This document shows, one piece after another, positions 3,310-20,802 of a stretch of DNA of 64,000 nt. The notes beneath the pieces were generated by a model. That model had not been told where the DNA came from and did no database searches. It saw only the letters and a list, made by a program, of their open reading frames with translations. The translations under genes were made by a program, and so were the position numbers. Source of the DNA: an uncultured Pelagibacteraceae bacterium (GTDB lineage: Bacteria > Pseudomonadota > Alphaproteobacteria > Pelagibacterales > Pelagibacteraceae); contig CACDQQ010000001.1 of assembly GCA_902555065.1 (NCBI GenBank), forward strand, positions 163,474 to 227,473. The letters run 5' to 3'. Position 1 is the stretch's first letter, and every line of letters begins with the position of its first letter.

Positions 3310-4105
3310 ATTTTTGCCAAATAGATCTTTCTTCTAGAACGCTAATCAATTTATCCGCATGGTCTTCTGAAGACGAAAGTTTTTTGGCAAGCCATCCTTT
3401 AGACTTTTCAAATTTTTTAATTTCAACATCTTCACCAAATTTTTCTCTTAGTACTTGTTCAGCATTCCCTATTCCATCTATCAAACCAAGTTTTAAGGAT
3501 GTTTTACCAGACCAAAATTCTCCAGAAAAAAGCTCAACATCTGTTTTGTTTAATTTTGTTGATCTACTTTCCTCTACAACATTAATAAATTCTTGGTGAA
3601 GTTCCAGTTGAATATTTTTTAATCTTTGAATGTCCTCTTCTTTCTCGTCTAAAAAAGGATCTAGAGTACTTTTATTTTTTCCAGCTGTATAAACCCTTCT
3701 TTGAACCCCAATTTTTTGAATTAAATCTTTAAAACCAAAAGAAGAATAAATTACTCCTATTGATCCAATTATAGAACTTGCATTAGCATAAATCTCGTCA
3801 CCTGCGCATGCAATTAGATAGCCTCCAGATGCAGCAACATCTTCCGCAAAAACTAGTACTTTTTTTTTATTTTTCTTAGATTGTTCTCTAATAAATTTAT
3901 ATATTAGATGTGATTGAACAGGAGAACCACCTGGTGAATTAATTGAAATTGCAACTGCTTCTGCTTTTTTTACTGAAAAAGCTTTTTTTATCATTTCTTC
4001 TTGAGAAGAATATTCTATTCCTTGTTTAAACTTTCCAACATTTCCAATGACACCAGTAAGCCTTAAATGACTAACAATTTTTTTTTTTTTAAAAATAGAG
4101 AACAT
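3299..4105 (-). CDS. S49-family signal peptide peptidase (SppA/SohB type)
   Basis: This is a 268-residue ClpP-fold serine protease of family S49, a family that degrades cleaved signal peptides at the inner membrane. Visible motifs are 'SINSPGGSP' near residue 56, the nucleophile Ser93 in 'AASGGY', and the probable general-base Lys143 in 'YTAGKNKS'. It has one protease domain, as in SohB or short SppA forms. The N-terminus begins 'MFSIFKKKK' and shows no membrane anchor or signal sequence, which is odd for a family normally tethered to the membrane. It overlaps glyQ by 11 bases. It is divergent from ispB across a 108-base gap. Confidence 0.88.
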
Positions 4106-13567: not shown

Positions 13568-14458
13568 ATGAATAATAATACGTACAACTTGCCTACGCTT
13601 TCGAATGAAGGTGGCTTAGCAGCTTATCTAGCTCAGATAAAAAAATTCCCTATGCTAGATGCAGAAGAAGAATACATGCTTGCTAAAAATTGGCAAACTA
13701 CAGGAAATGTTAAATCAGCTGAAAAACTTGTTACAAGTCATTTAAGACTAGTTGCTAAAATAGCGATGGGTTACAAAGGCTATGGTTTACCTCTTAATGA
13801 AATGATTTCAGAAGGTAACGTAGGTTTAATGCAAGCTGTTAAAAAATTTGAACCAGAAAAAGGTTTTAGACTTGCAACTTATGCAATGTGGTGGATTAAA
13901 GCTTCTATTCAAGAATATATTCTAAGATCATGGAGCCTAGTAAAAATAGGAACAACAACAGCTCAGAAAAAGCTTTTTTTCAACTTGAAAAAGTTAAAAA
14001 ATCAAATTGCACCTAGGACTGAGGGTGACTTACGTGATGAACACGTTAAAGATATAGCAAACAGATTAGATGTGAGTGAACAAGAAGTAGTATCTATGAA
14101 TAGAAGGCTTTCAGGAAAAGAACAGTCATTAAATGCACCAATTGGAGAAGACGGCGATGAATGGCAAGATTGGGTAGTGGACAATGATATGGATCAAGAA
14201 CTTAAATTTGCCCAAAATGAAGAAATGGAGCAACGAAAAGATCTTCTTCAAGATTCTATTAAAATTTTAAATGAAAGAGAAAAAGAAATCCTTTACTCAA
14301 GAAGATTAACAGACGATCCAATAACTTTAGAGGACTTAAGTAAGAAATTCAAAATAAGCAGAGAAAGAATAAGACAAATTGAAAATAAAGCTTTTGAAAA
14401 ACTTCAAAAACATATGCTGAACTCTGCTAAATCAAAAAATCTATTACCAGCTAATTAA
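13568..14458 (+). CDS. rpoH: RNA polymerase sigma-32 (heat shock) factor
   Basis: This is a 296-residue sigma-70 family protein with regions 1.2, 2, 3 and 4. Region 2 reads 'LVTSHLRLVAKIAMGYKGYG', then 'EGNVGLMQAVKKFEPEKGFR' and 'TYAMWWIKASIQEYI'. The diagnostic RpoH box 'QKKLFFNLKKLK' near residue 134 marks it as sigma-32 rather than RpoD. Region 4 ends with 'ISRERIRQIENKAF'. It would direct chaperone and protease genes, ftsH among them in other bacteria. It is convergent with the autotransporter-like gene. Confidence 0.96.
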   Translation: MNNNTYNLPTLSNEGGLAAYLAQIKKFPMLDAEEEYMLAKNWQTTGNVKSAEKLVTSHLRLVAKIAMGYKGYGLPLNEMISEGNVGLMQAVKKFEPEKGFRLATYAMWWIKASIQEYILRSWSLVKIGTTTAQKKLFFNLKKLKNQIAPRTEGDLRDEHVKDIANRLDVSEQEVVSMNRRLSGKEQSLNAPIGEDGDEWQDWVVDNDMDQELKFAQNEEMEQRKDLLQDSIKILNEREKEILYSRRLTDDPITLEDLSKKFKISRERIRQIENKAFEKLQKHMLNSAKSKNLLPAN

Positions 14459-14463
14459 GCTTA

Positions 14464-16271
14464 TTAAAATTCTTTTCTAATATTTGCAGTTAAACTGGTA
14501 TTAAATGCTTCTTTATCATTTCTATAATGATCGACCATTAAACTTATATTTAAACCATCTTCCAACGCAACGCCTATTCCAAGGGTTAGTTTTGCATGTG
14601 ATGTATTTTGATCAGATATTGCATTAGCATAAATAGTTGAAGAATCATTTACATAATAAGCTTCTGATAGTGAATTTATTGTTTTATTTTTACCAATTTC
14701 AAACTGCATTAAAGGAGTAATAAATCCTTGATCTATCTCTAATATATTTGAAAAATTAAATCCAAAAGATAATGACGAACTTTTTATATTTTGATCATTG
14801 TAATTAATTGAATCACCATCACCACTTTCAATATAATCGTCTAATATAGTATAACCCAAATCTATCCTAGAATAGTAATTTAAGTTTTTATTTTCTTTTT
14901 GCTCTAATGGTTCGAACAAGTAAGTGAAGCTTCCAAATAATTGTTTTCCATCTCTTAGGCCTTTATTATTTCCTCCAGATACTTTTCTATTGATATCGAT
15001 TTCTGTTTCTCCAAATCCAATGGCAGCCTCGAAATATCGATTTTCAAAAAATTGGTTGCTTCCATAGATTAATAAAGATTTTGCTGTTGCATCCATATGT
15101 GCATCATTACTTCCAATTTGGGTTTCTTGTTCAGATTGATTTAATGCTAAACCTATAGTTTTTAGATCAGTAATTTTTTTATCAAATCCTACCGTAAAAC
15201 CCTTGGTGCTAAGATCCTGACCTAAGTCTTTACCTTTGTTGTTTATTCTACCAAAAGAAAGGTTGCCTTCACTCCAAAAAGCAAATTTTCTCTCCTTTTT
15301 TTCATATTTTATTAAGTTAGTTGTTAAAGCATCAACTATTTTGTTTGCGTATGGGTCATTAAAATTTAATGCTATTTTATTTCTTGAAGTGTTACTATTT
15401 TGAATTGGTCTTATAAAATTTAAGCGGCTATTTACTCTATTTAATGACTGAGTCATTGACTGAATTGAGGCTGTTGTTTGATTTTTTAATAAAGTTTTTA
15501 CAGTATCGTCAAAAATTTGACCTTTTGCGGTAGTAAAATTTAAAGTTGTTGTGTTTGAAATACCAGCATAAGAGTTTCCAACTGCATCATCAAATGCGGT
15601 TGAATCTATTTTTACATGATAGGATGTATCATTTTCTAAGTCAGATGATGGATTAATAGTAATTTCAGTTGTTCCACTTCCAGATAATAATGATCCTGTT
15701 ACATCAATCTCTATCGCTTCGCCTGTTGATGTATTTATTATATCAATATTTCCACTTTCGGCATCTACAGCTTCATTAAATGTAAGAACTATATTTGATG
15801 ATACACTAACATTAGATGCTTCGTCAGATGGCGAAGAAGATGTTAAAGTAGGATTATTATTATCAACTGTTTTAAAATTTAATTCTGTTTTACTTGAAAT
15901 ACCATCAAAATTATTAAATGCTGCACTATCTACTAGGATATAATATTCAGTATCCTCATCTAAATTTGATGATAAAGAAAATGTAGCTGTAACTGTTGCT
16001 GGAGTGGACAAACTCATAGCTAAAAACATTCCATTAGTTGAAAAAATTTCAACAGTGCTGTCATCTGATGTTTTTTTTAAAATTACATTTCCGTTATTTG
16101 CTGATACAGACCCTGATGCTAGCCACACAAGATCTATTCCAGTATTCACTGCAATCTGTGTTGCATTATCTGCAGGAGTAGTTGATGATAAATCAACAGC
16201 GTGTACATGATTAGGATTGATTAAAATAACAAAAAAAAAAAAATAAATATGTGAGTATATTTATTATTCAT
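14464..16271 (-). CDS. Surface autotransporter-like protein with Ig-like domains; signal peptide out of frame
   Basis: The ORF-track start at 16149 is a GTG inside a repeat domain, not the real start. The frame stays open upstream and reads a signal-peptide core '...FVILINPNHVHA' before 'VDLSSTTPADNATQ', but it has no start codon before a stop at 16263-16261. An ATG at 16271 begins 'MNNKYTHIF', which would join this signal peptide if the T13 tract (16231-16243 on the plus strand) had one more T. The protein has two Ig-like (SwmA/Big_5-type) repeats, the second opening with 'SPSDEASNVSVSSNIVLTF'. A C-terminal outer-membrane beta-barrel of about 280 residues ends in Phe ('TANIRKEF'). The family assignment is an autotransporter-type surface protein; its ligand is unknown. 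Confidence 0.7.
16231..16243. repeat. 13-base poly-A/T tract in the signal-peptide codons of the autotransporter-like gene
   Basis: This run of 13 A on the plus strand reads as T13 in the gene. With 13 T the ATG frame ends at a TAA (16223-16221); with 14 T it would read straight through into the body of the protein. The tract codes for the hydrophobic Phe run of the signal peptide, a place where length change would switch export on or off. Confidence 0.85.
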
Positions 16272-16319
16272 ATTGGCAATATATGCCGAATTTTATTATT
16301 AATTAAATTAATTTTAATA

Positions 16320-17609
16320 TTAATTAAATGGATCTATTAAAAGGATAGTATCTTCTCTTTCTGGACTAGTTGAAATACTGGATATTTTTGTCTCAATGAA
16401 CTCTTCAATAGCTTTTACATAAATCTTTGCATTATTAGGTAAATTATCAAATTTTTTAATACCTTGGGTTTTAGATTTCCAACCCTTGAATGTTTTGTAA
16501 ACTGGTTTTACATTTAATTGATCCTCGACAGCAGCGGGGAAATAATCTATTTTGTTTCCATTTAATTCATAAGCAACACATAGATTTATTTCATCAAGTT
16601 CATCTAATACATCTAATTTAGTTAACGCTATTCCATCAATGCCTGAGATTTTTATTGTTTGTCTTACTAAAACTCCATCAAACCATCCACATCTTCTTTT
16701 TCTACTAGTTACAGTTCCAAATTCATGTCCCTTTTCACCTAAATAATTACCAATATTATCTGTTAGTTCTGTTGGAAAAGGTCCTTCACCAACCCTTGTT
16801 GTGTATGCCTTTGTAATTCCTAATACATAATTTATTGAGTTTGGACCACACCCAGATCCTGTTGCTGCTGAAGCTGCTACTGTATTAGATGAGGTTACAT
16901 ATGGATATGTTCCGTGATCAACATCAAGTAATATTCCCTGGGCACCTTCAAACAATATTTTTTTATTTTCTGATTTAAATTGATCTATTTTTCTCCAAAC
17001 AGGTGCTGAATATTTTAAAATATTTGAGGCTATTTTTAACAAATCTTCGACCAATTTGTCTTTTTCAAATATTGGTTTGCCCAATCCTTTTCTAATAGCA
17101 TTATGATGTTCAAGCACTAGGGATAATCGATTTTCTAGATTTTTTTTTGAAGCAAGGTCCATTACTCTAATAGATCTTCTTCCTACTTTATCTTCATATG
17201 CTGGACCAATACCTCTTCTAGTAGTTCCAATTTTTGATTTACCGGCAGAGTCTTCTCTTATTTCATCCATCTCTCTATGAAATGGTAAAATTAATGTGGC
17301 AGCCTCTGATAATATGAGATTATTTTCATTAATTTCCACACCTTTAGATTTAGCTTCATCAATTTCATCTAAAAGTGCCCAAGGATCTATTACAACTCCA
17401 TTTCCTATAATAGAAACTTTATTTTTTCTAACAATTCCAGAAGGTAATAATCTTAATTTATAAGTAACGCCATCTATAACTAAGGTGTGACCAGCATTAT
17501 GTCCTCCTTGGAATCTAATAACAACGTCTGCTTCACTGGATAGCCAATCAACTATTTTGCCTTTTCCTTCATCTCCCCATTGAGATCCAACAACTACTAC
17601 ATTATTCAT
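16320..17609 (-). CDS. purA: Adenylosuccinate synthetase
   Basis: This is a 429-residue GTP-dependent enzyme joining IMP and aspartate, the first committed step to AMP. The N-terminal P-loop '[16 protein letters not shown]' and '[12 protein letters not shown]' near residue 33 are intact, as are '[14 protein letters not shown]' near residue 128 and '[14 protein letters not shown]'. The length is standard. It overlaps thiD upstream by 4 bases. No riboswitch-like structure is visible because there is no leader between thiD and purA. Confidence 0.97.
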
Positions 17610-19752: not shown

Positions 19753-20802
19753 TTATTTTTGTAATTCTCTAAAGACTTTAAATGCCTGATTAATTTCTTG
19801 TACATCGTGAACCCTAAGAATTTGAACTCCTTGAAGATATGCTTGAATGCATGAAGATATGGTTCCACCAATTCTATTTTTAGTGTCATTTTCTTTTGAA
19901 ATATCCTTAATAAATCTTTTTCTAGACAAGCCCAACATTATAGGAAGACCTAATGAATGAAAAATAGAAATATTCTTAATCAGAGTAATATTATGTTTCA
20001 AATTTTTTCCAAACCCAATGCCAGGGTCTAATATAATATTATTATGTTTAATACCTTGTTTTCTTAGATATTTTAATTTTGTTTCAAAGAAGTCGTAGAT
20101 ATCAAGTAGTACATTTTTATATGTAGGCTTAATTTGCATATTCTTTGGTGTTCCTCTCATATGATGAATAACAAAAGGTTTTTTTGTTTTTTTTAAAAAG
20201 TCAATAGTTTCTGGGTCATAAGTTAGACCAGATACATCATTTATGAGATCTATATTTATTTTAGAAGCTTTCTTCATTACAAAACTTTTTCTAGTATCTA
20301 ATGAAATAAAACTTTTTTTATTTTTTAAATTTTTTAAAATAAACTTAACTCTGTTCCACTCTTTATCAGGTTTAATATCATTTGCACCTGGTCTTGTAGA
20401 CTCTCCACCCACATCTATTATTTTTGCACCACTTAATAATAAATTATCCACATGTTTTTTTGCAAAATTATTTTTATTATATTTACCACCATCAGAAAAA
20501 CTATCTGGAGTTAAATTAATTATACCCATTAAAATTGGGGTATCGGATAAATTTAATTTTTTAAAAATTTTTTTTTTTTTTATATTTTTTAAATCTCTTT
20601 TAACTATATTTTTTATTTTATTTGGAAGTTTATTAATATCTTTGAGATTAATTATTCTACTTTTTTTTCTCTCTATAATTTCTATTTTATCAAATGAGAT
20701 AGAATTATAACCATTAAGAGGAATAGATTGTTTTTTTTTAATGTATGTTTTTGATGCTGTTCCGTAGTAAAAATTACACGCTCTAGTGTAATATTTATTC
20801 AT
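19753..20802 (-). CDS. folP: Dihydropteroate synthase with long N-terminal extension
   Basis: This TIM-barrel enzyme condenses DHPP with pABA in folate synthesis. The catalytic core begins near residue 88 with 'ILMGIINLTPDSFSDGG' and includes 'IDVGGESTRPGA' near residue 135 and 'ILDPGIGFGK' near residue 255. The total of 349 residues is about 70 longer than a minimal enzyme. The extra N-terminal part carries no motif I recognise. A run of 14 A at the extension/core junction encodes 'KKKK' and is a potential slippage site. The gene is followed by glmM and preceded by ftsH. Confidence 0.93.
   Translation of the reverse strand: MNKYYTRACNFYYGTASKTYIKKKQSIPLNGYNSISFDKIEIIERKKSRIINLKDINKLPNKIKNIVKRDLKNIKKKKIFKKLNLSDTPILMGIINLTPDSFSDGGKYNKNNFAKKHVDNLLLSGAKIIDVGGESTRPGANDIKPDKEWNRVKFILKNLKNKKSFISLDTRKSFVMKKASKINIDLINDVSGLTYDPETIDFLKKTKKPFVIHHMRGTPKNMQIKPTYKNVLLDIYDFFETKLKYLRKQGIKHNNIILDPGIGFGKNLKHNITLIKNISIFHSLGLPIMLGLSRKRFIKDISKENDTKNRIGGTISSCIQAYLQGVQILRVHDVQEINQAFKVFRELQK
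20568..20581. repeat. 14-base homopolymer inside folP
   Basis: This run of 14 T on the plus strand is A14 in the folP reading frame, encoding lysines just before the catalytic core. The frame is intact at this length. Confidence 0.9.

Follow-up and report, generated by a model that had tools for sequence, protein, structure and literature searches.

In the window, i.e. a stretch of 64,000 nucleotides from an uncultured Pelagibacteraceae bacterium, the gene of an autotransporter-like surface protein is broken at a run of 13 T, which leaves the beginning of its signal peptide out of frame with an otherwise intact body. Rather than an evolved on/off switch, this break is most likely an isolated mutation caused by slippage or an error in the sequenced length; with about an even chance, the correct explanation is that replication slippage recently shifted the frame of a dispensable surface gene, possibly with some leakage. 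Regarding the four options offered in the first-pass annotation, a fixed loss (as a slippage mutation) or an error in tract length fits best, and phase variation is not supported. If real, the case would be a small example of a free-living, mismatch-repair-less and AT-rich genome keeping many long homopolymers in frame, and would show the outcome when one of them slips in a dispensable gene.

The frame break and the interrupted protein

On the minus strand, the ATG at 16271 opens a frame of 16 codons (16221..16271), which reads MNNKYTHIFIFFFLLF and is closed by a stop at 16221, the frame shifting at the tract. The tract (16231..16243, A13 on the plus strand) encodes Phe codons of the signal-peptide core. 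The rest of the signal peptide, with its c-region NPNHVHA, and the first mature residues follow out of frame at 16150..16220, cleavage being predicted from the sequence before VDLSS, and they lead into a 561-codon open reading frame with an internal GTG start (14464..16149, minus strand). Upstream of this GTG, the 561-codon frame reads IYSHIYFFFFVILINPNHVHA followed by VDLSS and reaches a stop without any start codon. In-silico insertion of one T gives MNNKYTHIFIFFFFVILINPNHVHA followed by VDLSS and joins the ATG to the 561-codon frame, which makes T14 the in-frame length for the window. The first-pass annotation had described this arrangement, namely the ATG in the other frame, the signal-peptide core deprived of a start codon, and the fusion of signal peptide and mature start by one T added to a tract of exactly 13; each of these points was confirmed on reading the frames. 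A single frame break in a long A/T run of a gene otherwise intact is the pattern of slippage-corrected frameshifts, and it is what is found here. As the body contains neither a stop nor any further frameshift, the gene is not an old pseudogene. Directly before the ATG (16275-16287) lies a small inverted repeat, GGCATATATTGCC, which is not kept in relatives.

The 561-codon frame carries a Big_5 Ig-like domain (PF13205, aa 96-207, E=2e-19) and an autotransporter beta-domain (PF03797, aa 291-537, E=1.5e-22), both well above the curated Pfam cut-offs; a search of solved structures gave no match. Signal peptide, passenger and C-terminal beta-domain together compose the architecture of a type V autotransporter, the signal peptide being recognised by reading the sequences of the relatives. 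The product would normally be a secreted surface protein, putatively with an Ig-like passenger and an autotransporter barrel. Type V autotransporters have been reported in hypervariable region 1 of the SAR11 strains HTCC1062 and HTCC1002 (PMC2217521); they resemble the present gene in being gained or lost between strains but differ in their site, which is here between purA and rpoH.

The gene and its tract in related genomes

The upstream neighbour (16320..17609, minus strand) is taken to be purA, and the convergent downstream neighbour (13568..14458, plus strand) to be rpoH of the sigma-32 type, both judged from their sequence; the former flank was confirmed and the latter also seen in relatives. 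In most of 30 Pelagibacter loci sampled at the end of purA, the surface gene is missing and rpoH directly follows purA, tens of bases apart, so that the gene is an accessory insertion between the two in one clade. One relative has only a decayed remnant of the gene (L125, G545:C29:1516-1673): its signal peptide runs, across a large deletion, straight into the final portion of the barrel, its start codon has changed to GTG, and towards its end there is a stop.

One scan of species-representative genomes provided 24 distinct orthologues at this locus; further genome searches found part of these again and added the remnant just described. In all 24, ATG, signal peptide and body share one frame, and with a homologous ATG in each of them the joining of the two frames is more than chance. 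The intact form proposed in the first-pass annotation, i.e. ATG, signal peptide and autotransporter-like body, is thus seen in every relative; as for relatives that would start this gene elsewhere and lack the signal peptide, none was encountered, the upstream ATG and signal peptide being used in 24/24. The distance from the ATG to GATTTATCATCAA is 75 nt in every relative and 77 nt in the window only, which is the sole off-frame copy among the 25 sequences. The longest T run among the relatives is T6 (2 sequences), T8 (14), T10 (1) or T11 (7), this variation being due to substitutions only, with the length of the stretch constant; the seven T11 tracts are uninterrupted, all seven without change in length, and T14 occurs in none of the 24. 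Accordingly, the description of a one-base change has to be amended: one added T does restore the frame, but relative to every relative (T11 where the tract is pure) the window's change is +2, though it stands one T short of the in-frame T14. In a maximum-likelihood tree, the window falls within a shallow, mostly T11 group, beside the T6 pair, with modest support.

Regarding selection, the pairwise dN/dS between the window and its relatives over the mature part is in the usual range (0.09-0.32). Within its clade, substitutions private to the window have an N:S of 11:6, vs. a total of 42:64 for six sister rows (p=0.066, two-sided), and private replacements affect 3 of 25 signal-peptide codons vs. 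4 of 150 (p=0.061). In a comparison that was chosen after seeing the data, these figures lean weakly toward relaxed selection.

Probable slippage mutation or length error

In the mechanism favoured here, i.e. a frameshift by replication slippage, the poly-T of the signal-peptide core would have gained two bases, and the slipped tract would have been left unrepaired in a lineage without MutS and MutL. The MutS_V domain was found in none of 41 Pelagibacter genomes (11 of 14 controls were positive) and none of these 41 contained a match to the MutL family above the family's cut-off, in which light slippage mutations are expected to be frequent; a published study reports that subclades Ic and IIa.A of SAR11 lack both mutS and mutL (PMC12374537). 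With the export signal out of frame, surface display would be largely off in the lineage of this cell, a loss presumably tolerated because the gene is accessory. Production of in-frame protein may persist to some degree, since T13 invites slippage of the RNA polymerase and the U-run permits -1 ribosomal frameshifting; transcriptional slippage is, by analogy, a plausible leak. In endosymbionts, corrected transcripts amount to 12-50% at long poly(A) runs (PMC5009743), and eight genes of Blochmannia vafer have homopolymer frameshifts of this kind (PMC3017870). The likeness to Blochmannia and Buchnera resides in an AT-rich reduced genome, one indel within a long run of A or T and a gene otherwise intact (PMC3017870; PMC5009743), whereas the window belongs to a free-living SAR11 bacterium and the frameshift concerns a dispensable surface gene in one genome, known from DNA alone. 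Against a slippage frameshift, the net +2 requires two steps or one unusual step, the signal of relaxed selection is weak and post hoc, and the species is represented by a single assembly, in which the tract length may be wrong; that T13 is the true length is inferred.

A less probable but still serious alternative is that the tract of the cell is in frame, at T14 or T11, and that an error of amplification, library or assembly gave 13. The source genome is a 29-contig draft with a completeness of 82%, several of the relatives have isolate names that look like those of single-cell genomes, length errors are common at tracts of T13-14, T14 would restore the frame, and the window is alone among the 25 sequences in being off-frame. 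The behaviour of the assembly at comparable tracts argues the other way. Among 60 tracts of at least 11 screened in the same genome (30 of the 54 T11, 19/19 T12 and 11/11 of 13-14), the target is the only clear gene-breaker, gene-end and intergenic tracts aside, from which the assembly can be taken to be mostly correct at runs of this length; of the tracts of 13-14, the ten others are all contained in open frames of 268-485 aa, and nearly all those of 11-12 are in intact frames. Moreover, a +2 error from the T11 of the relatives would be unusual, so that under an artefact the true tract would probably be T14, which none of them has, and the weak sign of relaxed selection in the gene also speaks against an error. 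Still, one wrong tract among those screened would not be surprising, and the target was picked for being off-frame.

Among the sense poly-A runs of 13-14, all in frame, one is found at 20568-20581 in a folP-like open reading frame (19753-20802, minus strand), another at 4078-4090, and eight elsewhere in the genome. An ABC-2-type permease-like open reading frame has a T11 close to its 3' end (L048:7764), where a shifted frame would extend 36 codons further; this is possibly a frame break or an end variant.

Switching, recoding and other starts as unlikely readings

Phase-variable contingency loci with homopolymer tracts are known in Campylobacter and Neisseria, and the present gene resembles them in that it encodes a surface protein and has a long homopolymer close to its start. 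Adaptive phase variation, in which cells of the population would turn the surface protein on or off by changes in tract length, could draw on this position of the tract at the 5' end and on the genus in which neither MutS nor MutL was found; it nonetheless appears improbable. At contingency loci, tract length differs from one close relative to the next and both ON and OFF forms occur, whereas here the relatives are all ON at an identical signal-peptide length, including those with an uninterrupted T11, and the window supplies the single OFF copy. Because of this constancy, the phase variation suggested in the first-pass annotation is not supported; in addition, substitutions interrupt the T run in most relatives, which would disable a switch.

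In 300 genomes searched with the pattern ATGA followed by at least 12 T, 46 regions were fetched and hand-picked for an ATG frame open to the tract; a genus-wide poly-T switch of signal peptides was discarded as the eight clear sense cases were all in frame (8/8), one ambiguous off case (L236, a short region with a longer antisense frame) being set aside from these. The paralogues were likewise considered as a switching family and rejected: their signal peptides are rich in Phe and contain T runs of at most 12, and none is visibly off-frame at the signal peptide where the N-terminal end lies within the locus. Long T runs of this sort exist because signal peptides are rich in Phe in AT-rich DNA. 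A search of the literature on phase variation in SAR11 gave nothing relevant among the papers listed. It seems quite unlikely that the tract occurs within the species as a mixture of 11, 13 and 14, with standing ON and OFF cells and a T13 made leaky by polymerase slippage; if true, a mismatch-repair-less ocean bacterium would carry a standing mix of cells with and without a surface protein.

Programmed recoding, whereby T13 would be retained as a means of holding the protein at a low level through transcriptional slippage or -1 ribosomal frameshifting, is more improbable again. T runs of at least 9 are slippery for the RNA polymerase in many bacteria (PMC1088944), the corrected transcripts of endosymbionts cited above give a precedent, and the U-run would offer a -1 slip site ahead of the stop; against this, a 2017 transcript study of Buchnera and E. 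coli reported no frame-restoring case (PMC5574713), and as the off-frame tract is unique to the window and lacks the conservation by which programmed use is usually recognised, there is no sign of selection for recoding. A different start, at the GTG present at 16149 or at a non-standard codon, giving a protein without this signal peptide, is scarcely credible given that every relative starts at the upstream ATG and carries the signal peptide and that an outer-membrane barrel needs an export signal for its arrival at the membrane and would otherwise fail to reach it.

A second off-frame, signal-peptide-like poly-T was observed in another genome (L006:2920-3490, minus strand, G159:C28), without relatives among the loci compared; there, a T12 after MKKIFIFFFF precedes a 179-codon open frame that adjoins a Big_5/autotransporter homologue.
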